Assembly: GCA_905234365.1 (NCBI GenBank)
Contig: CAJOHI010000005.1
Coordinates: 1-58,906, forward strand
Direction of reading: 5' to 3'
From: an uncultured Selenomonadaceae bacterium
GTDB lineage: Bacteria; Bacillota; Negativicutes; Selenomonadales; Selenomonadaceae
Length of the DNA stretch: 58,906 nt
In this document: positions 1,832 to 35,319 of the stretch, in pieces
Layout of the letters: every line of letters begins with the position of its first letter
How positions within the stretch are numbered: the stretch's first letter is position 1
Translations under genes and position numbers: made by a program
Notes under the pieces: generated by a model
Seen by the model: the letters and a program-made list of their open reading frames with translations, nothing else
Database searches by the model: none
Told to the model about the DNA's origin: nothing

Positions 1832-2128
1832 TTAAGGTCTTACAATCTGGTCAATCGTCCAGTTGTCTTGGAAATTGTTGATGGCAACTCGCGTAAGATA
1901 AGGTTCAGCTAACGACAACAGCAAAATCTTTGATGGTCTTGCCACCGCTCATCTGCTTGGTGCGTTCAACAACAAGTTTGTGGTTGGTGCCGTTGACGGG
2001 TTGAGTACATCGGCACATAGGAGCGACCGAACTTTGAGCCGAAAAGATTGCCGAATGAAGTTGTGAGGTCTTGAGGCAATTTATCAGCCTTTTCGAGTTT
2101 AAGTGTCCAACCGTCCAAAATTTTGCAT
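1832..2128 (-). pseudogene. Broken prophage protein of unknown function
   Basis: Three minus-strand frames read in order and together give a roughly 100-residue protein. The pieces are ILDGWTLKLEKADKLPQDL with FGNLFGSKFGRSYVPM, then VNGTNHKLVVERTKQMSGG with KDFAVVV, and last EPYLTRVAINNFQDNWTID. At least two or three indels disrupt the frame, including one just after the ATG. No family is recognised. Its place after the XkdX-like gene suggests a tail-fibre or tail-accessory origin. Confidence 0.4.
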
Positions 2129-2159
2129 TAGTGATTTCTCCAAATCTCCCTCGTTTTTA

Positions 2160-2538
2160 TCATTTTTTTGGATTGATACAGCCTTTAGCAACGGCATTAT
2201 TGATACCTTCTTGAGTGATTTTGCCGTCAGTGTAAAGCCTTTTCAATCTCTCAAACATCGTAATTACGAGTTCGTCGATAGCTGCACTGTTGGCAGCAAC
2301 AGCCGCCGTAGTTTTGTTTGATTCAACGCCGCCATCAATTTCAATTAAATAGACGGTATCATTAGCATCAATACCGTCTCTGCCTTGCGAATTGTATGCT
2401 GTGTCTTTGTAAGCAATGCCTTGAGCATTTTGTTGGTCGGTCTAAAATGTAGCAACCCGTATCTTTTTTCTTGATGTAGCGCGGATTTTCCGTGCTGCCG
2501 ATTTCAGTGCCGTCTTTTACACTTATAATCTTGTACAT
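2160..2538 (-). pseudogene. XkdX-like phage protein, frameshifted
   Basis: The ATG at 2538 opens MYKIISVKDGTEIGSTENPR. The frame then breaks near 2440-2450 and resumes in another frame as DQQNAQGIAYKDTAYNSQG. It ends with MFERLKRLYTDGKITQEG and NNAVAKGCI. That last part matches the usual ending of XkdX-family phage proteins (short helix, 'RLY..GKIT', then 'A..KGWI'), here with Cys in place of the typical Trp. On the coding strand the break coincides with a directly repeated GACC (GACCGACC). Removing one copy restores a single 124-residue frame, so a 4-bp duplication probably killed the gene. Confidence 0.6.
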
Positions 2539-2541
2539 AAC

Positions 2542-2846
2542 TCACAATCCTTTCACGCCGACAAGTCCGGCGATATACTTCAAATCTTCAATCGGTGCAT
2601 TAAAAAAATCGTCTGACCAAAGCCAGTATTATGCTCATCATAACCCTGCAAATAAGCAAGCATACCATACCATTCACGCTTGTCTAAAGTCCTCCCAGCT
2701 CTCATCTTGACTTTCTTGTACAGTGCTTTAATTTTGCGGCGGTCTCTCGGCATGGCAGTTTTGTTTGCACGTCTCACAATATGACCGCTTTCAAAATGAG
2801 TAAAAAAATTGAACCAATTTATAAATTGATTCAAAGATTTATTCAA
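2542..2846 (-). pseudogene. Possible reverse-transcriptase C-terminal fragment (phage/DGR type)
   Basis: The frame from 2846 encodes an 88-residue stretch with a basic helix (PRDRRKIKALYKKV) and then REWYGMLAYLQGYDEHNTG. This resembles the end of phage or DGR-type reverse transcriptases, where a basic 'RR.KLK.L' helix is followed by a 'S..SW.GH..H..TY' helix. The frame stops at 2580, but a neighbouring frame continues as FNAPIEDLKYIAGLVG to a stop at 2542, so a frameshift near 2595-2605 is likely. The catalytic domain is absent, so the call rests on a weak C-terminal likeness. It could instead be another phage protein. Confidence 0.3.
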
Positions 2847-2881
2847 TTATATACGCAGAGCATACAAATGGTTTACATTGT

Positions 2882-2957
2882 TGGTGGAGACGAAGGGAAT
2901 TGAACCCTCGACCCTCAGATTGCGAACCTGATGCTCTCCCAGCTGAGCTACGTCCCC
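2882..2957 (-). tRNA. tRNA-Ala (anticodon CGC)
   Basis: A complete 76-nt cloverleaf reads on the minus strand. The acceptor stem is GGGGACG/CGTCTCC, and its G3-U70 wobble pair is the alanine identity element. The anticodon loop is TTCGCAA, giving CGC, which reads GCG codons. The T-loop is GTTCAATTC. The CCA end is encoded. The 3' end points toward the prophage remnant, and tRNA 3' ends are common phage attachment sites. I did not find a duplicated tRNA end within the window. Confidence 0.95.
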
Positions 2958-3050
2958 GACGCAAGTTAGTTTATAACATTATTTGAATTTAGTCAATAAC
3001 TTTTAAAAATTTTTAAATTAAATTCCAAAACTTGTTATTAAAATTCACAA

Positions 3051-4340
3051 TTACATATCCTGATTAATCTTTACTATATGTACTTTATCAATGCGTGCTC
3101 TATCCATACTTGTAATTTCAAATCTAAAGTTATTCCATTCAAAGCGTTCGCCAACATTCGGTATTCTTCCAATATATGAAGTCAAAAAACCGCCTAATGT
3201 TTGGTAATGATCGTGATCTTCTTCCGGCAGTTCTTCGATATTGAAACGTCTTTTAAAATCAGCAATATCATAGAGACCGTCAACAAACCAAGAATTTTTA
3301 CCGATCATTGTGAATTGTGTCGATTCAGTGTCAATGTTTGAATCCGTACCTATAATTTCTATCAATAAATCATTCAGCGTAATAAATCCAACAACACCGC
3401 CGTATTCGTCTAAAACCATTGCTTCATGTATGCCTGTACTGCGAAATTTTTCAAGAAGTCTAAAGGCGTCCATTGTTCTGGGTACGTAAATTGGTTTTTT
3501 GAGAAGTTCGGTTATGTCAAGTGTTTTGAGCTTTTGAGTCAAGGCAACGTTGAGTAAATCTTTAGTATATAAAACACCTCGACAATCGTCTAAACTGCCA
3601 TCACCAACAGGCAGAATCTCATTTTTATATTTTGCAATGATTTTTAAATTGTGTTCAATCGAATCTGTCAAGTCGAGCCAGACAATTTGAGTTCTTGGTG
3701 TCATAAGTGAATAGGCCGTTTCATCGCCAAGTTGAAAAATTCTATCGACTAACTCCTGTTCTTCCTTTTCAAATGTGCCATCTTCGCGACCTTGTTCTAT
3801 TAAATCTTTAACTTCGTCTTCAGTCACAGCGTCTTCAGTTTCTTCACTTATTCCTAAAATCATCATTATTCCAATAGAAATATTTTTTATCAAGAAGATC
3901 AACGGTGTTAAAAAAATAGAAATTATTTTTATACTTCGATAATATTTGATAAGAAATTTTTCCGGCGATTGATGAGCAATTCGACTTGGTAGAAATTCGC
4001 CAAAGAGTAATATCATCAAAGAAACTATAAAAGCGGATAAGATTGCGGCCAAAAGAGGATTGAAATTTGGCAAAAGCGATAATGCTGTAAGAATAGCAAT
4101 TAAACTTACAAATATTTTTGTAAAAGTTAAACCTATTTTGGCAGCTATTAAAAATTTTTCAGGTGCTTCTAAGGTATTCAAAATTTTTTTGTCTTCAGTT
4201 AATTTTTCAAGTCGACTCTTATGACTTTCCAAAAATGCCGTTTCAACTAAAGTAAAATAGCCGCTCATCATCACCAGAATTAAAATTAGTGCGAGCGGCA
4301 AGCCTATATTATCCAAAAAAATTTCACACTCCTCAATCAA
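3051..4340 (-). CDS. CNNM/CBS-domain membrane protein (hemolysin C/CorC family)
   Basis: The 429-residue protein has the standard layout of the DUF21-CBS-CorC_HlyC family. An N-terminal domain carries about four hydrophobic segments (residues ~12-175). A CBS pair opens at SLMTPRTQIVW (~residue 210) and includes DEYGGVVGFITLNDLL. The C-terminal transporter-associated domain covers ~345-425. Such proteins act in the inner membrane and are linked to Mg2+ or Na+ transport; older 'hemolysin' labels are not functional evidence here. The start is unsettled: TTG at 4340 opens the longest frame, but a TTG at 4316 preceded by GAGGAG would start just before the first membrane helix. It stands alone between tRNA-Ala and fhs. 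Confidence 0.85.
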   Translation of the reverse strand: MIEECEIFLDNIGLPLALILILVMMSGYFTLVETAFLESHKSRLEKLTEDKKILNTLEAPEKFLIAAKIGLTFTKIFVSLIAILTALSLLPNFNPLLAAILSAFIVSLMILLFGEFLPSRIAHQSPEKFLIKYYRSIKIISIFLTPLIFLIKNISIGIMMILGISEETEDAVTEDEVKDLIEQGREDGTFEKEEQELVDRIFQLGDETAYSLMTPRTQIVWLDLTDSIEHNLKIIAKYKNEILPVGDGSLDDCRGVLYTKDLLNVALTQKLKTLDITELLKKPIYVPRTMDAFRLLEKFRSTGIHEAMVLDEYGGVVGFITLNDLLIEIIGTDSNIDTESTQFTMIGKNSWFVDGLYDIADFKRRFNIEELPEEDHDHYQTLGGFLTSYIGRIPNVGERFEWNNFRFEITSMDRARIDKVHIVKINQDM

Positions 4341-13079: not shown

Positions 13080-15368
13080 TTAATTTTGCTTCGTCTTCGT
13101 ATCTTTAAAAGAGATTTTAGTATAATCCGTCAGTTCATCAGAAGACGCTGCATTAAAATTATCATCATAATTGAAATTTGTACTAATCAAACTTGATTTA
13201 TCAATAAGAATTGAATTTAATTCCGAATTTTGCATTTTAAATTCCGAATCATCATCAAACCAGAAAGTTTCAACTTCGCGATAATTAGCAGAGGCACCGT
13301 AGGATTTTTGAGTACCTTTATTATCAATAACGGTAATTTGTTTATTTGCTGCGTCTTTGAGAGTCAATTTGCCTTTGCCAATAGTAAATACAAAATCGTT
13401 ATCTTTTGCAACCGCCTTTTTAACGTTTGTTTTCTTTCCGAGTTTTATAATATCACCAACGTCATAATCCATAATTACATCATTGCCATCACCGGCAGTG
13501 TAAACGAAAGTGTCAGAGCCTGTGCCGCCGTAAAGAATATCCGCACCAGCACCGCCAACGATTGTATCATCACCGGCGTTTCCATTGATAGTGTCAATGC
13601 CTTTGCCGCCGGTGAGATAATCTTCCTCTATGCTGCCAAAAATAGAATCGTTTCCGTCACCGCCGTTGAGAGTTGAAGATTTATTTCCTGCAACGATTGA
13701 ATCGGATTTGCTGCTGCCGGTAATTACGTTATTATTATCATTTCCAATAATGTAAGTAGGTTTATTTCGATTCGAGGCATTAATTTTTATGATTGAAGAA
13801 TTAACAGGCTTAGATGCGTCAAATGTTTCTGAATCTTTATTGGTAAGTTTTATATTTTCCATTGTGTAAGTCCGCGTTGAAGATTGACCATCACCGTCGA
13901 TAATCGTAATTTTTTGAGCAACGATTTTTTCAACTTTCTTTTGCTTGACAACTTTAATTCCATTATTGATTGTCAAAGTATTATTCTGACCAAAATCAAA
14001 GACAAGTTCGCCGGTATCAGTATAGCTGTTTACAGTAGCATTGGCAAGCGACAGAGACGAATCCAACTGAATTTTATCTTCACCTTCAGTGTAATCAATA
14101 ATAGTGTCATTGCCTTTTTTATAAATAAACAAATCTTTTCCGGCACCACCAGTTAAAACATCGTCACCTGCCAAAGATTTAATTGTATCGTTGCCTTTGC
14201 CGCCTATAATTTCATTTGCACTTGAATTGCCGATTATAAAAATGCCTTTTTTAAGTTTTGAAGCGTCAACTTTTTCAATGGATTTAGCCGCAGTATATAC
14301 AGTATCTTTATCACCTTTGGCAAAGATTTTTTCAACAGGATTTTTGTAAGAACCGGAATAAGAACCTATCGTATGACCATAAAGATCAACAAATGTAATG
14401 TCTTTACCCTTGCCATTCATTACTGTCAGCGTACCGCCACTGCCAGTGCTGGTTGTTGGATTATCAATAGTAAATATAAGGTCGTTTTCAGAAAAAGTAA
14501 CGTTGTCAAGACTTGCCATGCTGCTCATTGTAACATTGACGAGACGAATAACATCGCCTTGTTTCGGTGAATAATCAGTTATAACATCATCGCCGCCATT
14601 GTATGAAAAGAAATCAGCACCTTCACCGCCGGTAAGAGTATCATTGCTCCTTACTCCGCCAATAATTGTATCGGAACCATTGCCGCCTTTAATTATATTA
14701 TCTTCGTCATTTCCGATTATATAAATGCTTTTTTTCCGTTTGGAAGCATTTATTCTAACTACGCTTGGATTAGTTCTCGTGTCTATCTTCTTGCCGTCAT
14801 TGTCTGTGATATTTATTACTTCAGCGCCGTATGCTTGAGAAGTTGTAAGACTTGTTTTGTCATCAATAATGGTAATTTTGGGAGAATTGCCGTCTTTAAT
14901 AATATTGCTGAGTGTCAAGGTTCCTTTGCTGAAAGTTAAAACTATATCGCTATCTCTAATATCTGAAGTTACAAGTGTAGTATCCGAAGATACTTTGATT
15001 TTGTCTTCACCGGCTTTATAATCAGTAATTGTAATATCACCGTTATTGTAGACAAAAATATCATTGCCTACACCGCCTGTTAAAGTGTCATTACCGACAC
15101 CGCCATCCAAAGTATCGTTAAATTTGCTGCCCTTAATTGAATTATTTTTCGCGTTGCCAATTATATAAACCGGTTTCTTGCGCTTTTTGGCATTTGCAAT
15201 GTCAGTATTGGCTTCCAAAGTAACGATTGTTCCGTCTGAATTTTTAATTACTTGCGTATTGAGTAAAACGGTATCGGTAGTAGTATCAGAACTGCTGCCA
15301 CCGTCTAAAGTATCTTCTGTATAAAAATTAAAATGAGTTACAGGCTCAAAATTAACAGTATACGTCAC
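13080..15368 (-). CDS. RTX-type Ca2+-binding repeat protein, four modules
   Basis: A 762-residue acidic protein with four modules of roughly 150-200 residues. Each opens with a basic linker and 'YIIGN' or 'FIIGN' (e.g. ASKRKKSIYIIGN). RTX nonapeptides follow (GGVGNDTLTGGVGND, GGKGNDTIKSLAGDD, GGAGADILYGGTGSD), then a 'F.Y..GDD.I.DY..GD.I.L' strand and a 'LTL.N....ITIID' strand. RTX repeats bind calcium after type I secretion. No catalytic domain, N-terminal signal peptide or secretion genes are seen, so a surface or S-layer-like role is inference. AAAGGAGTGA precedes the ATG at 15368, and a promoter lies at 15415-15443. Confidence 0.85.
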   Translation of the reverse strand: MTYTVNFEPVTHFNFYTEDTLDGGSSSDTTTDTVLLNTQVIKNSDGTIVTLEANTDIANAKKRKKPVYIIGNAKNNSIKGSKFNDTLDGGVGNDTLTGGVGNDIFVYNNGDITITDYKAGEDKIKVSSDTTLVTSDIRDSDIVLTFSKGTLTLSNIIKDGNSPKITIIDDKTSLTTSQAYGAEVINITDNDGKKIDTRTNPSVVRINASKRKKSIYIIGNDEDNIIKGGNGSDTIIGGVRSNDTLTGGEGADFFSYNGGDDVITDYSPKQGDVIRLVNVTMSSMASLDNVTFSENDLIFTIDNPTTSTGSGGTLTVMNGKGKDITFVDLYGHTIGSYSGSYKNPVEKIFAKGDKDTVYTAAKSIEKVDASKLKKGIFIIGNSSANEIIGGKGNDTIKSLAGDDVLTGGAGKDLFIYKKGNDTIIDYTEGEDKIQLDSSLSLANATVNSYTDTGELVFDFGQNNTLTINNGIKVVKQKKVEKIVAQKITIIDGDGQSSTRTYTMENIKLTNKDSETFDASKPVNSSIIKINASNRNKPTYIIGNDNNNVITGSSKSDSIVAGNKSSTLNGGDGNDSIFGSIEEDYLTGGKGIDTINGNAGDDTIVGGAGADILYGGTGSDTFVYTAGDGNDVIMDYDVGDIIKLGKKTNVKKAVAKDNDFVFTIGKGKLTLKDAANKQITVIDNKGTQKSYGASANYREVETFWFDDDSEFKMQNSELNSILIDKSSLISTNFNYDDNFNAASSDELTDYTKISFKDTKTKQN

Positions 15369-18179: not shown

Positions 18180-19160
18180 ATGAATTGTTATTTAAGTCTT
18201 GGTGCCAATCTCGGCGATAAACAAAAAAATATTCGTCAAGCTATTGAATTAATTTCGCAGATTAGCGGAGTTTCTTTAATTGCAGTGTCTCATTTTTACG
18301 AGACAGAAGCTTGGGGCGTCATAAATCAGCCAAATTTTATAAATGCTGCCGTCAGAATTAAATCGACGCTTCAACCGCTACAGCTTCTTGACGAACTTCA
18401 AAAAATTGAATATAAACTCGGTCGCGTTCGTCATGGACATTGGAGCGCAAGAACGATTGATATTGACATTTTGTACATTGACGACATGAAAATTGACAGC
18501 GATCGGCTAAAAATTCCACATCCGTTTATGATTGAGCGTGATTTTGTTCTGGTGCCGCTCAGTGAAATTAGCGGCATTAAATACAACCTGCACGGCGATA
18601 AAGTCATTAAAATCAATGGTTGTTTGGTTGACTTCAATTTAAAATTAATTGCCTGTGTCGATAAAAATTTTGGACTCGGTTATAAAGGCAAGTTGTTATT
18701 TAAAATTCCTGAAGATATGAGGCGATTTCGCAAATTGACGCTGAATAATACTGTTATTATGGGCCGCAAAACTTTTGAGTCGATTGGCAAACCTTTGGAT
18801 AACCGCCGAAATATCATCTTGTCAAAAAGTGTTGCTAACATTGGCGGCGTTGAAGTTGTAAATAATCTTGAGGAACTTTATAATATTCTCAACTACGATT
18901 GGCAAATCAAAAATTCTACATTAATTATTGGCGGCGGCGAAATTTATAGACAGCTCTTGCCTTATGTTTCAGAAATTTATTTAACGGTCGTCAACGAAAA
19001 AAAAATTGCCGATACCTTCCTGACGAATTTTGAAGAATATGGCAATTTTATTTGCGACTCAATAGAAAGTCATAATAATTTTGAATTTAGACATTATTTT
19101 TTGAAAACGCTTACGCCTGATGTCAGCAGCATTGCATCACCAAAAGAAAAGAATCTGTAA
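18180..19160 (+). CDS. Fused HPPK (FolK)-dihydrofolate reductase
   Basis: Residues 1-~150 are 6-hydroxymethyl-7,8-dihydropterin pyrophosphokinase: [12 protein letters not shown] at the start, [10 protein letters not shown], and [15 protein letters not shown] with the Mg-binding aspartates. Residues ~154-310 are dihydrofolate reductase: [28 protein letters not shown] with the acidic catalytic position, [12 protein letters not shown] and [13 protein letters not shown]. The protein would carry an early and a late step of folate synthesis. No folP, folB or folE is nearby. The last ~16 residues pass the normal DHFR end and overlap the 3' end of queA by 67 bases. The ATG at 18180 has GAGGG upstream. 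Confidence 0.92.
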
Positions 19161-20181: not shown

Positions 20182-22581
20182 TTAACGTACGTCTTCTCCG
20201 TACTTCGCTTTAATAGCTGACTTGTGATTATACATTGCAACATCAGCTCTCTTTGCTACGGAAATGAAGTCCATTCCCTGTTCGTAAATTCCGATACCAC
20301 GAGCTACAGACACTGTGAGTGTATCTCCAGCCGCTTCAAAACGTTCTTCCAATATTTTGTCATCAAATAGGTTAAGAAGTTCTTTACGATTTTCGTAGTC
20401 TTTCTGCTCCAATACCGCCGCAAATTCGTCGCCGCCGATTCTATAAACCGGACTGTGTTTGAATACTTTGCAAATGACTTTAGACGCATGACGAAGAAGT
20501 TCGTTACCAGCCTCATGACCATAATTGTCATTGACTTTCTTTAGGAAATTTGCATCGAATATGACTACACCATAAGCTAAATCCGGATCCAATTTACTTT
20601 GTGCATCAAGTTCTGCTCCCTTGCTCATATATGCCGCTGCATTACGAAGACCTGTCAGCTTATCACGATAGACGTAAACTTCAAGTCTCGCCGCCATTTC
20701 ACGAATACTGCGGACTAAAAGACCCAATTCGTTGCCGGACTCATAGGAAATTTTTACATTGAGATCGCCTGACGCTATACGTTTTGCCGCTTCCGTCATT
20801 CCTGCCAAAGGACGAATAGCGTGAGACGCAAGTGCAATACTTCCAACAGATATAAGCATTGCAACCATTAAAATTGCCGCCACCAAATGCATTAAGATAC
20901 GATTACGTGCGTCATGAACTTTACTTAAAGGCGTTGCAATACCTAGCCACATTCCGTTTGCCAAATAAAGTTCTATTTCCTGAAACTCTGGATTTGATTG
21001 AAATATAGAGCCTTGAAACCGATCTTTATGATAAAGTACAATATTATTTCGGTTCATTATGTAAACATAGCCATAATCATAAATGGACATACGCCGTAGT
21101 TCCTGAATTATAAAATTAAAGTCGATATCCATACCGATAACGCCTATGAATTTTCCTTCAATAAAAATTGGAGCAACATAAGAGATGACATAGGAATTTG
21201 ACACAGGATCAACGTAAGGTTCAATCCAGGTTGCACATTTACATTTAAAAGGAATGTAGTACCAGCCGACATTTTTAACATCATCTGAAGAATAAACAGA
21301 AAGGTCGATTGGATCTCGCCTTATGAAAGGTGAAAGCGCTCCTTCCCAACGTGCATCTTCGCGCTCCATAGAAAAGCCGCCTTTTGTTCCTGCAATTTCC
21401 GGCGCTAGTCTTAAATAATAAGCAATGCTGCCATCTGTTTCCATAGCGATAGCACTAAAAGCCTTCTCCATATTGGCAAGATAATTTTCCCTATAATCTC
21501 TATCTCCTACCAGTCGATCATAACTTTCAATAGCGTTTATTGCTTGAAGTTCCATACCATTTACAGCCTGTCTCACGCAGAAGAAAGTGCGATCTAATCT
21601 CTCGCGGCAAATAACACTCATAGCATGTAGAGAATCGTCTGCATGGGATTTTACTAAATTTCCCATAGCTACAGAACTTCCCCAACCAAGCACTGCCGCA
21701 GAAAGAAATACAGTCAATGCTACTAAAAATACAATTTCCATCATGATTGAACGGCGATATCGCAACAGCAGATAAAACATAAGGACAAGATATATATCTA
21801 TCATTGCTAAACATTCAACTATAAAGCGTAGCCATGTAGCTAAATGATCCATTCCATAAATTTGATAGATATTCAGATAAGCAACTACTATTGGAAAGAT
21901 CATATAAAATACGGATGCTACAATCCATGCTTTATGATTCTCACCTGCAAACTGATCGTTTTGTTCAGCGGACAACTCGCCAATGTTTTCGGTCATTTGA
22001 TAAAAGGTATAGCCTTTGCTGATTAAGAAGAAAAAACAAACAAGGTCAAAAAATATTGCCACGAAAAAATCATTCATGAAGCAAACAAGCATATATACCG
22101 GCATTATTGATGTTTTTGCCAAACTAAGCCAGTTTTTTAATTCTTCCAATTCTATTGCAGGCGCTGTTAAGGTGCGAAATACTGAAGTTACAGCAAAAGT
22201 AACGAACATAATTATAAGGAATTTTTTTAGCGTATTTACTCTAAGTGAAAGTGCAGATTTATCCGAATCAAAATGAAGTTTCTGCCAAAGTAAGTAAGGC
22301 AAATATCCTGCAAAAAATATCCATAATCCTCTGCCAAAATATGGAAGCCAGCTATCTATAGTGCTTGTATAAATAAGGTCATGAAGTTCAGGTACCGATA
22401 ATAGTCCTCCAACATAAACTCCTGCTGCTGCCAAAGGTCCCCACATAAATCCTAAGATAGGTGGTAAGAATGTTGCAATACTAATAATTTTTGCTGGTAT
22501 TACAAAAATAACTCCTGCGTATGTTGCAACAAGCCAATATAAGAACGCTGACATGCAAAACCGATATACTCCTTGTTTCAC
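20182..22581 (-). CDS. Multipass membrane Cache-HAMP-GGDEF protein (diguanylate cyclase)
   Basis: The 799-residue protein starts with about six hydrophobic helices (1-~190) reminiscent of MASE-type or ECF S-component-like modules. More membrane segments follow (~215-305). A dCache-like periplasmic sensor (~310-560) has YVIMNRNN-like strands (GYVYIMNRNNIVLYHKDR). HAMP covers ~590-635 and GGDEF ~640-795. The catalytic motif RIGGDEF is intact at 714-720, with FDANFLKKVNDNYGH upstream, so it should make c-di-GMP. The inhibitory I-site (RxxD before GGDEF) is absent. The GTG start at 22581 overlaps the TRAP binding protein's stop as GTGA, implying translational coupling and a shared sensory role. 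Confidence 0.9.
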   Translation of the reverse strand: MKQGVYRFCMSAFLYWLVATYAGVIFVIPAKIISIATFLPPILGFMWGPLAAAGVYVGGLLSVPELHDLIYTSTIDSWLPYFGRGLWIFFAGYLPYLLWQKLHFDSDKSALSLRVNTLKKFLIIMFVTFAVTSVFRTLTAPAIELEELKNWLSLAKTSIMPVYMLVCFMNDFFVAIFFDLVCFFFLISKGYTFYQMTENIGELSAEQNDQFAGENHKAWIVASVFYMIFPIVVAYLNIYQIYGMDHLATWLRFIVECLAMIDIYLVLMFYLLLRYRRSIMMEIVFLVALTVFLSAAVLGWGSSVAMGNLVKSHADDSLHAMSVICRERLDRTFFCVRQAVNGMELQAINAIESYDRLVGDRDYRENYLANMEKAFSAIAMETDGSIAYYLRLAPEIAGTKGGFSMEREDARWEGALSPFIRRDPIDLSVYSSDDVKNVGWYYIPFKCKCATWIEPYVDPVSNSYVISYVAPIFIEGKFIGVIGMDIDFNFIIQELRRMSIYDYGYVYIMNRNNIVLYHKDRFQGSIFQSNPEFQEIELYLANGMWLGIATPLSKVHDARNRILMHLVAAILMVAMLISVGSIALASHAIRPLAGMTEAAKRIASGDLNVKISYESGNELGLLVRSIREMAARLEVYVYRDKLTGLRNAAAYMSKGAELDAQSKLDPDLAYGVVIFDANFLKKVNDNYGHEAGNELLRHASKVICKVFKHSPVYRIGGDEFAAVLEQKDYENRKELLNLFDDKILEERFEAAGDTLTVSVARGIGIYEQGMDFISVAKRADVAMYNHKSAIKAKYGEDVR

Positions 22582-23633
22582 TTGCCATCATCCTCTCCGT
22601 GTTTTTTTTCCATATCAATGCGAAAAGCAGTACAAGCTTCTTCGCCATATTTTGCCTTGAGTTTTTCTCGCAGAGGATATACCCTTTCTTTAAAAACTTC
22701 CAATTCCTCCGGAGTAAGGTCTATAATTTCCAAACCATCTGCAGCAAATTGTCTACGAATCTTTTTTTCTTCCGTTTCCAAATAATCACGACTCCACTCG
22801 CAGGCTTCTCGCATTTTTTCACGAAGCAGTGCTTGCGTTTTCGGTTCTAATTGCTCAAAGGTTTTGCGATTAGCAACAAAAAGGTAATTTTCGTAAAGAT
22901 AATTCCAGACCGTCATATATTTTTGAATTTCGTTGAGATGACCGGATCGCATAAGGAAAAATCCGTTTTCCTGTCCTTCAATTACACCTTGTCGAATAGC
23001 AATATTTAATTCACTCCAACCTAATGGAACCGGCTCGGCACCAAGTGCAGCAAAGAAAAGACGGTAAACCTCGCCTCCAAGTACGCGGATTCTCATACCT
23101 TGAAGGTCATCAGGAGATCGCATTGGATTGCGGTTACTGGTCAGTTGGCGCATGGCGTTATGCGTTGATCCGAGATAAACAAGACCATAATCAGAAAGAA
23201 CCTTTGCATAATAGTCGCCACCTGTATCATCAATTACTTGCCGTGCTTCTTGATAACTTGAAAAGGACCAAGGAATTGTTGCCACTTCCAACCGCGAATC
23301 GAGAAGCGACATGGTTCCTGATACATAAGCGCCTAAATCAACGGCTCCTTCTGTTAAAGATCGTACAGCCTCATTTGTATTGCCGCCGGTCAATTCATCG
23401 TTAGGATAAAATTCAATATGCACATTGCCACCGGACGCTTCTGCTACCAATGCCGAAAAATGCCGTGCCGTGAGTGTTTCGATTCCCATATCTGTGCCGT
23501 TGGCAGTCATTACTAAACGAACTTTTTCGTATTGCTCTCCATTTGTTTGAGGTTCTTCTCGTTGTTCGCTGCAACCATTAAAAAAGGTCAGCACTGATAG
23601 CAAGAAAAAAATAAATGCTAAACAACGCTGCAT
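22578..23633 (-). CDS. Orphan TRAP-type (DctP family) binding lipoprotein
   Basis: The 351-residue protein has a lipoprotein signal with lipobox FNGC (Cys21). The DctP fold follows: LVMTANGTDMGIETLTARHF, VHIEFYPNDELTGG, AVRSLTEGAVDLGAYVSGTM, and QGMRIRVLGGEVYRLFFAALGAEPVPLGWSEL split by conserved positions. In TRAP transporters such a protein delivers organic acids to DctQ and DctM membrane proteins; neither is present. The next gene overlaps by 4 bases and is a membrane diguanylate cyclase, so a ligand-sensing role is likely. AGGAGGACA precedes the ATG at 23633, and a promoter lies at 23690-23717. Confidence 0.9.
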   Translation of the reverse strand: MQRCLAFIFFLLSVLTFFNGCSEQREEPQTNGEQYEKVRLVMTANGTDMGIETLTARHFSALVAEASGGNVHIEFYPNDELTGGNTNEAVRSLTEGAVDLGAYVSGTMSLLDSRLEVATIPWSFSSYQEARQVIDDTGGDYYAKVLSDYGLVYLGSTHNAMRQLTSNRNPMRSPDDLQGMRIRVLGGEVYRLFFAALGAEPVPLGWSELNIAIRQGVIEGQENGFFLMRSGHLNEIQKYMTVWNYLYENYLFVANRKTFEQLEPKTQALLREKMREACEWSRDYLETEEKKIRRQFAADGLEIIDLTPEELEVFKERVYPLREKLKAKYGEEACTAFRIDMEKKHGEDDGK

Positions 23634-25137: not shown

Positions 25138-27630
25138 TTATTTTCCAGGTCTTCCAAGTTTTTCTGCAAGACGACGTTTTAATTCTCTTTGAAATTCTTC
25201 TGCACCACTTTGAAATTTAACCTCAACACAAATAACATAAATTGGTATGCTCCAATTTTCTTTTGCCACATCAACCGGAATTTTAACGGCGTCTTTTTCA
25301 GTTATGACTATCGCTTCTGCACCTTGTGCTTCTGCCTGCTGCAAAACGTCCTGCATTTCACGCATTGTGTATTCATGGTGGTCAGGATAGCGCATACTTT
25401 CCATAATTACAGCGCCTAAATCTTTTAAAGTTCGCTCAAATGATGCAGGATTTCCAATCGCCGACACCGCCATAATTCGCTTACCTTTGATATGATCAAC
25501 ATTGACACCTTCACCGGCTAAATCAACATACCAGTCGCCAAGCGGAATAAAACAGCGCGGTTGATGAATGCTTTCAACGATTTGCGCCTGTTCATTGTAT
25601 TTATGAACAGTCTCACGAATATACTCGCAGGAACCTTTTGCCGCCTGATCAACTTTCGTCATAAGGCAGACATCAGCGCGGCTGATATGTGACATTGATT
25701 CTCTCAAAGTGCCGCGAGGCAATAAATGACCGTTGCCAAAAACGTTGACAGCATCGACAAGCAAAATATCCATATCACGAACAAGCTGCCAATGTTGATA
25801 GCCGTCGTCTAAAATTGCAACTTCAGCGCCGAAATGCTCAATAGCATATTGACCGGTGACGGCACGTTGAGCACCGATTAAAACCGGCACATTCGGCAAA
25901 TGTTTAGCCAGCATGTAAGCTTCATCACCTGCCTCAGCCGCATCCATATGCAACTGTTTTCCGTCGCTGACTATTCCAACTTCACCGTGCCATTTAGCTC
26001 GATAACCACGATTCAAAATTACAACGCGATAACCCATGTCCCTAATATCGCGAGCCAATTTTTGCGCTGTCGGTGTCTTTCCTGTGCCGCCGACAGTTAT
26101 ATTGCCGAGACTTATAACATAACAATTAATCTTTTCCTGTCGCGAAATTCCAATTTTATAGCCGAGAAGTCTTATATTGATAAGCTGTTCATATACCAAA
26201 GAAAAAGAGTACAGAATAGCAACTAAAATGTGCATAGTTATGCCTTCGACTTCCTTATTTTGCAGCATGTGCAGGAAATAAGTTTGCAAATTTTCAACTT
26301 TTTCGGTCGTGCGAACGTGTTTTGCATTTTCGCGTTCCTCAAATTCCGTAAGCATATTTCTGAGCAAAATTGCAGATTTTCTTGAGGCGCCGCGATTTTC
26401 TCTAACAATAGACAACGTTTCAATCTCCAATTTACGGCGATGTTCAGGATCATCAAACAATTTAAGTGCCTCATCAATCAATTCTTTCGGACTGTTAACG
26501 GTTATACAGGCATTGCGATTTTTAAAAAGTGCATGTGTATCCTTAAAATTTTCCATATGATGACCGACAATAATCGCCTTGCCATGCGCTGCCGGTTCTA
26601 AAATATTATGACCACCGTGAGTTACGAGACTGCCGCCAACGTAAATGACATCACCAATACTGTAAACTTTACCGAGTTCACCAATCGTGTCAAGAATGAT
26701 AATATCCTCACCGGCAGGCGGTCGCTTTTGCAATTCCGTTCGAGTGCCAACTGTGAAACCTGCCTTGCTGCAAATATGAACTACTTCAACCGTTCTAAGT
26801 AGTTCACGCGGTGCAATTACAAGGCGTGCCTTTGGGTGATGTTCGCGAATCTTTTTGAAGGCGTTTATTACATATGTTTCTTCGCTGCGATGAGTGCTGC
26901 CTGCAAGTAAAATACCGTCAGCGTCTGTCAATCCCAAATCAATGAGAATTTTTTGACGTTCTTCAGGTGTAACGTCGGTGTAAGTTTGATCGAACTTTGT
27001 ATTGCCTGTAACTGTGACCAAATCTTCCGGCGCACCGAGCTGTTTAATATAATCAGCATCAATAGAGGACTGCATGGCAAACAACTTGACCGTTTTAATC
27101 ATATTTGTCAAAACTGAATAGAGATATTTATAACGCTTAACACTCTTTTCGCTGATTCGACCGTTGACCATCATAACCGGCACATTTAATTTTCTTGCGG
27201 AATTTAAAAAGTTAGGCCATAATTCCGTTTCAACGTTTAAAAATACTCTTGGGTGTATTCGACGCAAGACATGAGCAGCAACAAAAGGCAAATCCAGCGG
27301 AAAATAAATTATGCTGTCTGCGTCTTTGATGATTCTGTTTGCCATTTCATAACCGGAAGTTGTCACAACAGATACTAAAATTGGCGACTTTGGAAATTCT
27401 TGGCGAAATTCCTTAATTAATGGACTTGTTGCAACAATTTCACCGACTGAAGCGGCATGTACCCAAATACAATTTTTTTTCGCAACCTTGTCAAGTGCAT
27501 GTTCAGGAAAAAAACCTAAACTCTGTTTAATTCGTTCCGTAAAACCTTTTTCACGTATTGAACGTATAGCAAACATAGGTATTATTAAAATTACAACGAT
27601 AATTGCTACGATATCATAGAGAAGCTGCAT
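25138..27630 (-). CDS. Fused Kdo transferase (WaaA)-tetraacyldisaccharide 4'-kinase (LpxK)
   Basis: Residues 1-~425 are WaaA/KdtA (GT30): a membrane anchor (4-22), WVHAASVGE with catalytic Glu64, ETELWPN, and GGSLVTHGGHNILEPAAHGK. Residues ~465-830 are LpxK: P-loop SLGNITVGGTGKTP (507-520), VVILNRGYR, GDEAYMLAKHLPN, ILDDGYQHW and TEKDAVKIP. LpxK phosphorylates the lipid A precursor at 4'. WaaA then adds Kdo to that product, so the fusion joins consecutive steps at the inner membrane. AGGAGTGA precedes the ATG at 27630. No other lipid A genes are nearby. Confidence 0.95.
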   Translation of the reverse strand: MQLLYDIVAIIVVILIIPMFAIRSIREKGFTERIKQSLGFFPEHALDKVAKKNCIWVHAASVGEIVATSPLIKEFRQEFPKSPILVSVVTTSGYEMANRIIKDADSIIYFPLDLPFVAAHVLRRIHPRVFLNVETELWPNFLNSARKLNVPVMMVNGRISEKSVKRYKYLYSVLTNMIKTVKLFAMQSSIDADYIKQLGAPEDLVTVTGNTKFDQTYTDVTPEERQKILIDLGLTDADGILLAGSTHRSEETYVINAFKKIREHHPKARLVIAPRELLRTVEVVHICSKAGFTVGTRTELQKRPPAGEDIIILDTIGELGKVYSIGDVIYVGGSLVTHGGHNILEPAAHGKAIIVGHHMENFKDTHALFKNRNACITVNSPKELIDEALKLFDDPEHRRKLEIETLSIVRENRGASRKSAILLRNMLTEFEERENAKHVRTTEKVENLQTYFLHMLQNKEVEGITMHILVAILYSFSLVYEQLINIRLLGYKIGISRQEKINCYVISLGNITVGGTGKTPTAQKLARDIRDMGYRVVILNRGYRAKWHGEVGIVSDGKQLHMDAAEAGDEAYMLAKHLPNVPVLIGAQRAVTGQYAIEHFGAEVAILDDGYQHWQLVRDMDILLVDAVNVFGNGHLLPRGTLRESMSHISRADVCLMTKVDQAAKGSCEYIRETVHKYNEQAQIVESIHQPRCFIPLGDWYVDLAGEGVNVDHIKGKRIMAVSAIGNPASFERTLKDLGAVIMESMRYPDHHEYTMREMQDVLQQAEAQGAEAIVITEKDAVKIPVDVAKENWSIPIYVICVEVKFQSGAEEFQRELKRRLAEKLGRPGK

Positions 27631-32643: not shown

Positions 32644-32674
32644 TTGATTCTAAATCACAGAAAGAGTGATAATC

Positions 32675-33601
32675 ATGAATTGTTTAAAGAAAATTTTGTT
32701 GCCTATGATTGTACTTATTGTGGTCATAGCAGTTATGACAGGCTGTGGAGGAGAGCGTAGTGACAAAATTTTTTATCTCAATCACGACAACACAGATTTC
32801 TTTGGTGGCATGTTAATTAGGGAGGAAGTTGCCAGATTTGCTCAAACTAAAGGACTCAACATTGATTTTTATGATGCCAAAGGTGACAGCAATACTCAAA
32901 TGGACCAAATGAAAGAAGCTCTCAAAAATAATCCTCAAGCTATCGTTTTGCTTGCGATTGACGGCGATGGAATGATTCCATTTGTCAAGCGTGCCAATGA
33001 AATTGGTATACCAATCGTTACAGTTAATCGTGATGCAAATGACGGCGAAAGGATAAGAGTTACTTCTGACGACTTTGAAGCCGGCAAATTACAAGCTAAT
33101 TATATGGCTCAAAAACTTCCTCAAGGCGCAAATGTCGTATATCTTGAAGGCACAGCAAATTTATTGCTCTCTCAAAAACGTTGGGACGGTTTCAAAAAAG
33201 AATTGAATGCCAAGCGTCCGGATATCCAAATTTTGGACATGCAGGACGGTAAGTTCAGTAAGGCAGAAGCAATGAAAATTACTGCTCTTTGGCTGTCAAT
33301 ATATCCTAAAATTGACGCTGTTGTTTGCGGTAATGACCAAATGGCACTCGGCGCTATTGCGGCGCTTAAATCTGCAAATCGTCTCACAGGTTGCCTCGTT
33401 TCAGGTATCGACGCAGTAGATGATGCCTTAAAAGCCATTGCAGCCGGTGAAATGGTGCAAACTATCAAACAAGATGGAATTAAACAGGCAGACAGTGTTG
33501 TTGAAATTTTGGAAACTATCAGCAAAGGCGGCAAACCTACTGATATTGAAATTCCGTATACTTCTATCACCAAAGATAATTTGGCACAATTCAAAAAATA
33601 A
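32675..33601 (+). CDS. Orphan ribose/galactose-type binding lipoprotein
   Basis: The 308-residue protein (from the ATG at 32675, with AGAAAGAG upstream) is a lipoprotein with lipobox MTGC (Cys24). Its Peripla_BP_4 fold resembles Rbs[63 protein letters not shown], split by conserved loops, and [18 protein letters not shown]. RbsB-type proteins bind sugars such as ribose or galactose. No ABC permease or ATPase gene is present. A chemoreceptor gene starts 11 bases after its stop, so it may present sugar to that receptor, as RbsB does to Trg in E. coli. Confidence 0.92.
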
Positions 33602-33612
33602 GGAGAACTGCC

Positions 33613-35319
33613 ATGTTAAAAAAATTATCCGTAAGAACAAAAATATTATTTCTTTCCATAGTTATGATTTTTATTATTTGCGTAGTTGCAGGCGTCGGTA
33701 TTATCTTCAATAGTTGGGCGAAAGATTCCTTAGATGAGATGTATAAATCGAATCTTATGGCAACTCAATTTTTAAACGATGCAAATGGTCATTTTCGTAA
33801 TATTGATGTAGATATTGCCTACATGTTACTTGGCAGCAGTGGCATTGACCGCAATATCTTGCAGGAAGACATTCTGGCACGTTTAGAAAATATTCGTAAT
33901 AATGCTGACAGATTGAGTGAGATTGTCAAAGATGAAAAATCTCATCAGATTCTACAGAGTCTTTACGAACATTTAAATCAGGCAAAAACAGCAGTCAATG
34001 CAACTAAAGGTCTCTCAAATTCTCCGGAAGATAAAATTAAATTGTATAAAAATCTCATGGCAGTCAGAACCGTTGCAGATGATCTTAACGCAATTACGCC
34101 AAATAACGTATTTCAAGGCAAAATTTTATTTGAGGAAAATAACGAAAGTTACAATCTTGTCATTCGCATATTCGCTGCAATTATAATTCTCGGTCTTCTT
34201 TTTGGAATCGGTGCAGCAATTATAATATCAAGAAATATTGCCAATCCTTTATCACGTGCTATTGAAGAATTAAACACCATAGCCAAAGGCGAATTGACTA
34301 AAGAAATTCCAGCGGAACTCATGGAACGCGAAGACGAAGTTGGAACCGTCGTTCATGCTCTTTCAAAAATGCAAGGTAGTCTTCGCGATATTTTAAAAAA
34401 CGTCCGAGAAGAAGCGCAACATAGCGTGGATATGGTAGGAAGTGTACAAGCACTCATAAGAACACTTGACGAACACACACAAGATATGTCTGCGGTGACT
34501 GAACAAATTGCCGCCGGCACTGAAGAAACGGCTGCCACTACCTCAAATATTCAAACTTTAAGCGACAATGTAAATAAAGAAATTCTCAACACTTCTGAAG
34601 AATCGCAGCGCAGTGAAGCCTACGCAAATGAAATTGACGAAAGAGCCGCTAAACTTCGAGAGAGTACAAGTCAAGCCATTAAGGTATCGGAACAGCTTTA
34701 CGGTCAAACTAAGTCATCACTTGAAAAGTCTATCGAATCGGCACAAGTTGTCAGCGATATTGAGCACTTCACAGGCGAAATAGTAAATATAGCGGATCAG
34801 ACCAATCTTTTAGCACTTAATGCGGCAATCGAAGCTGCAAGAGCCGGTGAACATGGTCGCGGTTTTGCGGTTGTCGCCGACGAAGTTAGAAAACTCGCCG
34901 AACAAACTGCCGGTTCTGCTGATAACATAAAAAAACTTACTGAACAAGTTACAAGTTCCGTTAATGAGCTTTCAAAAGGAGCTTTCGACATTCTCAAATT
35001 CATTGATGATACGGTCATTAAAGACTATCAAGGCATGGGAGAAACTGCCGAACAATACAAGAAAGACGCCGAATATGTTAAAGATTGGGCGCGTCAAAGC
35101 AACGAAAGAGCATCTACGCTTGCCGAATCAATTCAAACTATGACCAGAGCAATGGAAGATATTGCAAGGGCAACACATGAAGGCGCTGTTGGCAATACCA
35201 GCATTGCTGAGAAAGTTTCACTAATGGCAGAAAATGCACATGAAATTTCCAACAAGATGAACGAATCAGAAGCAGGTGCAAGGCGTTTAATGGAACAAGT
35301 TGACAGGTTTAAAATTTAA
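33613..35319 (+). CDS. Methyl-accepting chemotaxis protein with a 4HB-type sensor
   Basis: The 568-residue protein has TM1 (~11-32), a helical periplasmic domain of ~150 residues that looks like a four-helix bundle ([18 protein letters not shown]), TM2 (~183-207), HAMP ([17 protein letters not shown]) and a signalling domain with the canonical tip ([19 protein letters not shown]) and ending [15 protein letters not shown] precedes the ATG. It starts 11 bases after a binding lipoprotein gene; 4HB receptors such as Trg and Tar accept ligand-loaded binding proteins. The specific partnership here is inference from adjacency. Confidence 0.93.

Follow-up and report, generated by a model that had tools for sequence, protein, structure and literature searches.

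The stretch of DNA analysed here, referred to throughout as the window, comprises the 58,906 nt of contig CAJOHI010000005.1 from an uncultured Selenomonadaceae bacterium (assembly GCA_905234365.1; genome G000 in our numbering). On its reverse strand lie two overlapping genes, one for a solute-binding lipoprotein of the DctP type known from tripartite ATP-independent periplasmic (TRAP) transporters and, immediately downstream, one for a membrane-bound diguanylate cyclase. Their features are as follows, with the basis of each assignment in brackets.

22578-23633 (-): orphan DctP-type (TRAP) solute-binding lipoprotein, 351 aa, ATG start (PF03480, TIGR00787)
23571-23582 (-): lipobox, residues 18-21, with the Gly20-Cys21 acylation site (alignment)
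23148-23150 (-): pocket residue Arg162 (aligned to the RQ motif of Fusobacterium nucleatum SiaP, 4mnp)
23085-23087 (-): pocket residue Arg183 (alignment to F. nucleatum SiaP)
22965-22967 (-): pocket residue Asn223 of the GQEN motif (alignment to F. nucleatum SiaP)
22578-22581 (-): 4-nt overlap of the dctP stop and the GTG start of the cyclase gene (open reading frame coordinates)
20182-22581 (-): membrane diguanylate cyclase, 799 aa, GTG start, composed of a multi-helix module, dCache, HAMP and GGDEF (Pfam, AlphaFold2)
21748-22581 (-): N-terminal membrane module, residues 1-278, about seven helices, no family assigned (AlphaFold2, hydropathy)
20917-21684 (-): periplasmic dCache domain, residues ~300-555 (PF02743; Foldseek and phmmer to 9hvj)
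20680-20832 (-): HAMP domain, residues 584-634 (PF00672)
20215-20670 (-): GGDEF domain, residues 638-789 (PF00990)
20422-20436 (-): GGDEF motif, residues 716-720, with the RxxD inhibitory site (I-site) missing upstream, where F707 and S710 stand (cyclase alignment)

Both reading frames, the four nucleotides they share and the GTG start lie exactly where an earlier, sequence-only reading of this DNA had placed them, and an overlap of this kind makes translational coupling of dctP and the cyclase gene likely. By profile as well as by fold, the lipoprotein belongs to the DctP family PF03480: it matches the Pfam family with E=4e-62 and scores over the cut-off of NCBIfam TIGR00787 (DctP), and the best PDB matches of its AlphaFold2 model (mean pLDDT 88.8) are TRAP binding proteins, with a target-normalised TM-score of ~0.9. 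Gly20 and Cys21 of the lipobox do not vary among the 36 sequences of an alignment (A2) that joins the window protein to 35 DctPs from DctP-adjacent loci of a named collection of 84,980 species genomes; this collection overlaps heavily with the other genome set used below, so that counts from the two are not additive.

The cyclase is matched by dCache_1 (E=2e-17), HAMP (E=2e-12) and GGDEF (E=1e-21), and its AlphaFold2 model has a mean pLDDT of 84.0. A second alignment (A3) holds the window cyclase and those of 46 of the 52 cyclase loci in the named collection, the six omitted (L208, L213, L223, L224, L228 and L233) being cut, incomplete or not chosen. An intact GGDEF motif, the metal-binding Asp and the guanine-contacting Asn are present in 47/47 of these sequences and an RxxD I-site in 0/47, so that the missing I-site is a trait of the family rather than a peculiarity of the window. 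The expectation of a GGDEF domain that is catalytically intact by motif and lacks RxxD is thereby borne out; the enzyme probably makes cyclic di-GMP (c-di-GMP), and product inhibition would be lost with the I-site. The segment 20422-20556 (-) represents a GGDEF subtype carrying DxN and GHxxGN, Asn693 included.

For the N-terminal part, six helices resembling an ECF S or MASE module had been proposed. A multi-helix module is indeed present, but the AlphaFold2 model has about seven helices, not clearly six, ahead of the one that leads to the Cache domain, and the resemblance was not supported: across six N-terminal modules no fitting Pfam family appeared at E<=10, and hhalign gave probabilities of 0.2-0.3% to 5TM-LYT and ECF sets built from relatives, against 43% for ECF versus LYT (MASE was checked through Pfam only). 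Among the 50 Foldseek matches shown for the whole cyclase, all accounted for by Cache, GGDEF and long helices, none to the N-terminal module was apparent.

Conservation of the pair and the two kinds of DctP

A search for DctP found matches in 78 of 119 genomes. All 26 proteins of 72-100% identity, the window's included, directly precede the same cyclase (a contig end truncates two of these cyclases close to the start), and three further, more distant pairs (L046, L085 and L104) are present in the same set. When the sensor part of the cyclase was used as query on 299 genomes, 77 matched at E<=1e-10, which added pairs from further genera of the family. A scan of the named collection yielded 52 cyclase loci whose titles name Selenomonadaceae, Veillonellaceae, Selenomonadales or Schwartzia; in many cases, a sample from the rumen or another ruminant gut source is stated explicitly. 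Directly upstream of the cyclase lies a DctP gene at 35 of these loci, a gene for a ChvE-like binding protein at eight and no binding-protein gene at another eight, the remaining start being cut by a contig end. The spacing of -4 nt recurs in 17/35 DctP-adjacent loci, the other gaps measuring 5-50 nt, apart from one of 205 nt at a locus where the cyclase start is uncertain. The sequence-only reading had named a lack of conservation as a finding that would speak against its proposal, and these counts (26/26 and 35/52) document the opposite.

The surroundings of the pair do not share this conservation. Of seven genes that neighbour the pair in the window, tblastn (E<=1e-20) found none at the 35 DctP-adjacent loci, which argues that the pairing is not inherited synteny, and among the immediate flanking reading frames of these loci a single upstream type recurs, at two loci; some of the flanking frames are spurious antisense frames, of which the tblastn test is independent. 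As the flanks change while the pair recurs, the two genes stay together and their adjacency goes beyond chance. At two loci (L205, 7172-9950 (+), and L207, 633-3367 (+)), a pair of genes for a chemoreceptor and a ChvE-like lipoprotein adjoins the DctP-cyclase pair (Pfam was run on the L207 pair).

In the window, neither dctQ nor dctM adjoins dctP. The source genome (2.3 Mb in 148 contigs, 89.4% complete) contains one DctP match, 15 GGDEF matches, some of which are parts of one gene, and no match in a search for the DctM family, so that a DctPQM transporter is found neither alongside nor, as far as DctM is concerned, elsewhere in this 89.4% complete genome. As far as the genome is complete, the orphan state of its DctP is thus real, as the sequence-only reading had claimed.

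Within the same genus, a DctP of ~50% identity is followed by dctQ and dctM, as in a normal TRAP operon, and the two kinds of protein separate in a maximum likelihood tree of 73 rows (bootstrap not fully settled; the truncated or fragmentary L090, L092 and L106-L110 as well as the pairs L076 and L085, which lie outside the named set, were omitted). On one side stand 36 cyclase-linked rows together with the solitary L086 (98/90), on the opposite side 22 transporter-linked rows (99/93), to which the apparently frameshifted L087 is added (99/94). L086, an intact DctP, comes from a genome (G008) in which a cyclase without an adjacent binding protein (L158) lies on another contig; these two are perhaps a split pair.

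Arg162, Arg183 and Asn223 of the pocket have counterparts at the aligned positions of F. nucleatum SiaP, and both arginines are kept in 36/36 cyclase-linked and 22/22 TRAP-linked rows, Arg162 thus in 29/29 rows of the close clade A and 7/7 of the distant clade B. Asn223 is kept in 29/29 clade A rows, 3/7 clade B rows and 22/22 TRAP-linked rows; all three residues are therefore present in every clade A row, the window among them. Arg183 corresponds to the canonical Arg through which TRAP binding proteins hold a carboxylate, and in SiaP the Arg and Asn residues at these positions bind the carboxylate of the ligand. The kept Arg and Asn positions point to an organic acid or other carboxylate-type compound as the putative ligand of the window DctP. 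Several positions differ consistently between cyclase-linked and TRAP-linked proteins (e.g. F226 versus Ser), suggesting that the ligand may differ between the two sides.

An independent parallel is found in four genomes of family f11, two of them assembled in one or two contigs, where the only DctP match is preceded by a GGDEF gene, the gene order being reversed (L054, L114, L115 and L116). Two of the partner genes were profiled as dCache-GAF-GGDEF-EAL, and similarity places the remaining two with them. The f11 DctPs form their own clade (100/100), and the DctM-family matches of these genomes reach at most 41.8 bits, compared with 323-394 bits for full-length DctM in the same search. A fusion of DctP and cyclase was also looked for: of the long DctP frames, the three examined (L040, L041 and L042) contain no GGDEF domain. 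By sequence, L040 is a DctM-DctP fusion. In L041 (3017-5248 (+)) and L042 (4376-6544 (-)), the DctP domain stands C-terminal in HAMP-MCPsignal proteins, after the signalling domain (Pfam), placed as if it were a cytoplasmic part.

The most notable result that had not been anticipated is that the source genome encodes another cyclase with this domain architecture, ~40% identical to that of the window (contig C54; L162, 3-1976 (-)), and 32 nt upstream of it a Peripla_BP_4 lipoprotein (2012-3058 (-)), again an orphan. The eight ChvE-linked loci among the 52 are of this type. The nearest solved relatives of this lipoprotein are 4ys6 (E=2e-109) and ChvE itself (3urm, E=1e-101). One receptor chassis is therefore combined with two unrelated families of binding protein, and an unrelated orphan lipoprotein beside the paralogue fits a receptor composed of a binding protein plus a cyclase. 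The C-terminal end of the C54 cyclase apparently continues on contig C118.

A proposed binding-protein-driven cyclase and its alternatives

DctP and the cyclase most likely form a chemical sensor together, and we consider it probable that ligand-loaded DctP controls the adjoining enzyme. This interpretation is based on the architecture of the two proteins, their 4-nt coupling, the conservation of the pair among changing neighbours, the split of the DctP tree and the paralogue with its other lipoprotein. In the proposed mechanism, the orphan lipoprotein, anchored outside the cytoplasmic membrane, would close on a small carboxylate-type ligand and, once loaded, engage the dCache domain that the neighbouring cyclase exposes in the periplasm; the shift so caused would be relayed by the final transmembrane helix and HAMP and reach the GGDEF dimer, where the synthesis of c-di-GMP would change, most likely upwards. 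What we infer is that DctP touches the Cache domain and not the membrane module, that c-di-GMP rises rather than falls, that the ligand is a carboxylate and that the enzyme is catalytically active. A sensor of binding lipoprotein and cyclase had already been suggested in the sequence-only reading; conservation of the pair, the tree split, the absence of a DctM match from the source genome and the paralogue's lipoprotein speak for it, whereas the ECF S or MASE module that was to serve as a second sensing site is not supported.

Several observations weigh against this mechanism and are set out here with the explanations they favour. A serious rival, if an unlikely one, is that the cyclase senses a ligand of its own—an amine, a nucleobase or a short-chain acid—via dCache, with DctP being merely co-expressed or providing a second, independent input. 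The dCache receptor 9hvj, which binds uracil and acetate, ranks first in Foldseek and reaches E=7e-35 in phmmer for the Cache domain of the cyclase, and several positions matching its ligand contacts are mostly kept in 34 DctP-linked cyclases (R391 in 32, F403, W440, Y456 and H518 in 34, D485 in 32; Y505 in 27/34), F403 being matched to F129 of 9hvj by allowing a one-column shift. Cyclases without any adjacent binding protein exist as well (8/52 loci), and three genomes (G007, G038 and G042) contain the cyclase without a DctP match, so that the enzyme can exist alone; W440, Y456, D485 and H518 are kept in 6/6 aligned cyclases of the kind lacking an adjacent binding protein. On the other hand, three uracil contacts are mostly not retained: the T145 position is Thr in only 4/34, the N178 position is Asp in 33/34, and Asn is never among the commonest residues seen at the N178 and N180 positions (Y273 and K280, which contact acetate in 9hvj, lie outside the aligned region). 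Direct sensing is also at odds with the ChvE-linked cyclases, in which W440 is deleted and H518 replaced in 7/7 aligned, while Y456 and D485 remain; W440 and H518 are both kept in all 34 DctP-linked cyclases and in all six aligned ones that no binding protein adjoins. Finally, co-expression alone leaves unexplained why DctP and the cyclase stay together at many genomic places and why a ChvE-like protein takes the place of DctP beside the paralogue. Two inputs may act at one receptor.

Co-variation does not settle where the two proteins would touch, nor does it distinguish the two kinds of input. In a mirror-tree comparison of 34 pairs, DctP distances correlate with every part of the cyclase, and partial r values after removal of the GGDEF component are 0.62 for Cache as a whole (membrane-proximal half 0.70, distal half 0.41), 0.65 for HAMP and 0.39 for the N-terminal module. 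No single contact region is thus singled out, and the value for the whole Cache domain, which does not exceed that for HAMP, counts against the proposed mechanism. So do two features of the output side: Asn occupies residue 693 in 46/47 aligned cyclases, and no PilZ proteins were found in the source genome. Residue 693 stands at the place of a guanine-contacting Asp of other GGDEF domains.

It is improbable that DctP still serves transport via a TRAP permease encoded elsewhere and that its adjacency to the cyclase reflects joint regulation. The DctM family was searched for in 33 genomes: 28 of the home family that have an adjacent pair, the source genome included, four of another family, and G008, whose DctP is solitary. 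A match at E<=0.001 is present in 24 of them, in 23 over the family cut-off. These figures favour the transport explanation, as does the match in 12/13 of the genomes that are >=90% complete and <=5% contaminated, five of the 12 being weak, namely those of the four other-family genomes and of G023 (94% complete), whose match amounts to 17.5 bits only. The strong matches belong either to a separate dctPQM operon or to one of many proteins of ~650 aa, and an unlinked DctP could in principle be used by a DctM-family protein of the latter kind; the one examined, of ~640 aa, has no binding-protein gene apparent beside it (L245, 6177-8093 (+), genome G006). Set against this, no DctM match was found in G000, G059, G004, G064, G057, G025, G039, G048 and G066, among which G059 is 96% complete and 6% contaminated and G004 is 93% complete, and the dctPQM operons, where present, have their own DctP of the sister clade. 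The genomes are drafts, in most cases bins from metagenomes, which is a further point against the mechanism proposed above, and such drafts can hide a DctM: G057 has no match, yet carries a dctP-dctQ stretch at a contig end. The pair is thus found both with and without a TRAP permease elsewhere in the genome. A dctQM pairing elsewhere, which the sequence-only reading had named as grounds for abandoning its proposal, is not found in the source genome, but DctM-family proteins occur in most of the genomes examined.

Least probable is that the lipoprotein is a free scavenger or the partner of another receptor and lies beside the cyclase by inherited synteny. Bacterial genes are often closely spaced without further meaning, and G008 does have an intact DctP of this clade that stands alone; the changing flanks around a conserved pair speak against synteny, and the lone cyclase on another contig of G008 makes even this exception a perhaps divided pair.

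Known relatives and implications

Binding-protein-driven c-di-GMP enzymes are already known. The closest analogue is NspS-MbaA of Vibrio cholerae and Sinorhizobium meliloti, where the gene of a transporter-type binding protein likewise overlaps or abuts that of a membrane c-di-GMP enzyme. NspS delivers the ligand signal to MbaA (PMC8079147, PMC8967002, PMC9993111) and the two genes overlap in most species (PMC9993111, PMC8967002). The window pair is of this kind in that a binding-protein gene is directly coupled to a membrane GGDEF gene and conserved with it. It is not NspS-MbaA proper: NspS is PotD-like, i.e. of the ABC type, whereas the window protein is of the TRAP type and lipid-anchored, and MbaA combines GGDEF with EAL, whereas Pfam finds GGDEF and no EAL domain in the window cyclase, which has an additional N-terminal membrane module. 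Unlike NspS-MbaA, the window system also has a paralogue with a ChvE-type partner.

Binding proteins are further known to act on membrane receptors in ChvE-VirA. The same principle underlies XylFII-LytS (PMC9769921), CuaD-CuaSR, in which CuaD is described as a lipoprotein adjoining its sensor gene (PMC10384115), and BctC-BctDE, in which BctC, a component of a tripartite tricarboxylate system, signals through BctE once it has bound citrate (PMC5812351). All four have a histidine kinase rather than a cyclase as output and none uses a DctP-family protein. The DctP-DctQ-DctM operons of the same genus share a sister DctP with retained pocket positions, but have dctQ and dctM downstream where the window pair has its cyclase. 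The Roseburia uracil/acetate receptor 9hvj, the nearest solved relative of the Cache domain, is a chemoreceptor that binds its ligand directly, unlike the mechanism proposed here for the window cyclase; the term "solute-binding" is absent from the main text of its paper (PMC12415202). A 2022 review of c-di-GMP sensing describes domains of the periplasmic-binding-protein (PBP) clan as prevalent in GGDEF, EAL or HD-GYP proteins, with SBP_bac_3 alone having been studied, a statement that concerns fused domains (PMC8846402), and a paper citing another review gives 13 of 22 binding-protein families as having been shown to interact with receptors. Full-text searches, which did not cover most subscription papers, turned up no account of a diguanylate cyclase with a TRAP-type DctP as its partner.

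The inputs of many diguanylate cyclases are unknown, and a conserved soluble binding protein alongside the enzyme makes the signal directly screenable. The split between transporter-linked and cyclase-linked DctPs within one genus, together with the ChvE-type partner of the paralogue, amounts to a natural experiment in which the conversion of a transport protein into a subunit of a signalling system can be followed. If the mechanism is true, c-di-GMP, and with it perhaps attachment or swimming, would be tied to specific metabolites in ruminant guts, which are rich in organic acids and plant sugars.

Further binding lipoproteins and other genes of the window

Beyond the two cyclases, the source genome contains additional binding proteins beside receptors. 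Peripla_BP_4 has four matches (C54, C6, the window and C1), and all five DctP and Peripla_BP_4 proteins found in this genome lie with receptors. In the window, an orphan Peripla_BP_4 lipoprotein of 311 aa (32666-33601 (+)) is followed 11 nt on by a four-helix-bundle (4HB) chemoreceptor of 568 aa (33613-35319). On contig C6 (L241, 4600-8868 (-)), a 4HB chemoreceptor and a Peripla_BP_4 lipoprotein lie in one orientation with a WavE-like gene between them, and on contig C1 (L252, 821-5053 (-)) a Peripla_BP_4 protein stands with a histidine kinase, a LuxR-type response regulator and an SBP_bac_1 protein, beside genes that by eye look like a mannose-type phosphotransferase system. The genome has only two BPD_transp_2 permeases, which by eye look like LivH/LivM of a branched-chain amino acid system, a type that Pfam cannot separate from sugar permeases. 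Neither a TRAP permease nor a clear sugar-type permease was found in this genome, and permeases may be missing from the tally because it is incomplete. These arrangements allow a broader and more tentative proposal, to which we give slightly less than even weight: Selenomonadaceae may rely on a single membrane-cyclase chassis, with its ligand determined by exchangeable, structurally unrelated orphan binding lipoproteins of the DctP or ChvE type and, more broadly, may have turned binding proteins of transporters into signal receptors wholesale.

Elsewhere in the window, the single reading frame at 25138-27630 (-) presumably encodes a KdtA-LpxK-like fused enzyme of 830 aa, and that at 18180-19160 (+) what we take to be a FolK-dihydrofolate-reductase-like fused enzyme of 326 aa, both being named from the sequence. 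A reading frame at 13080-15368 (-) contains GND-type repeats that by eye resemble RTX calcium-binding repeats, and similar-looking repeats are present on other contigs of the same genome.

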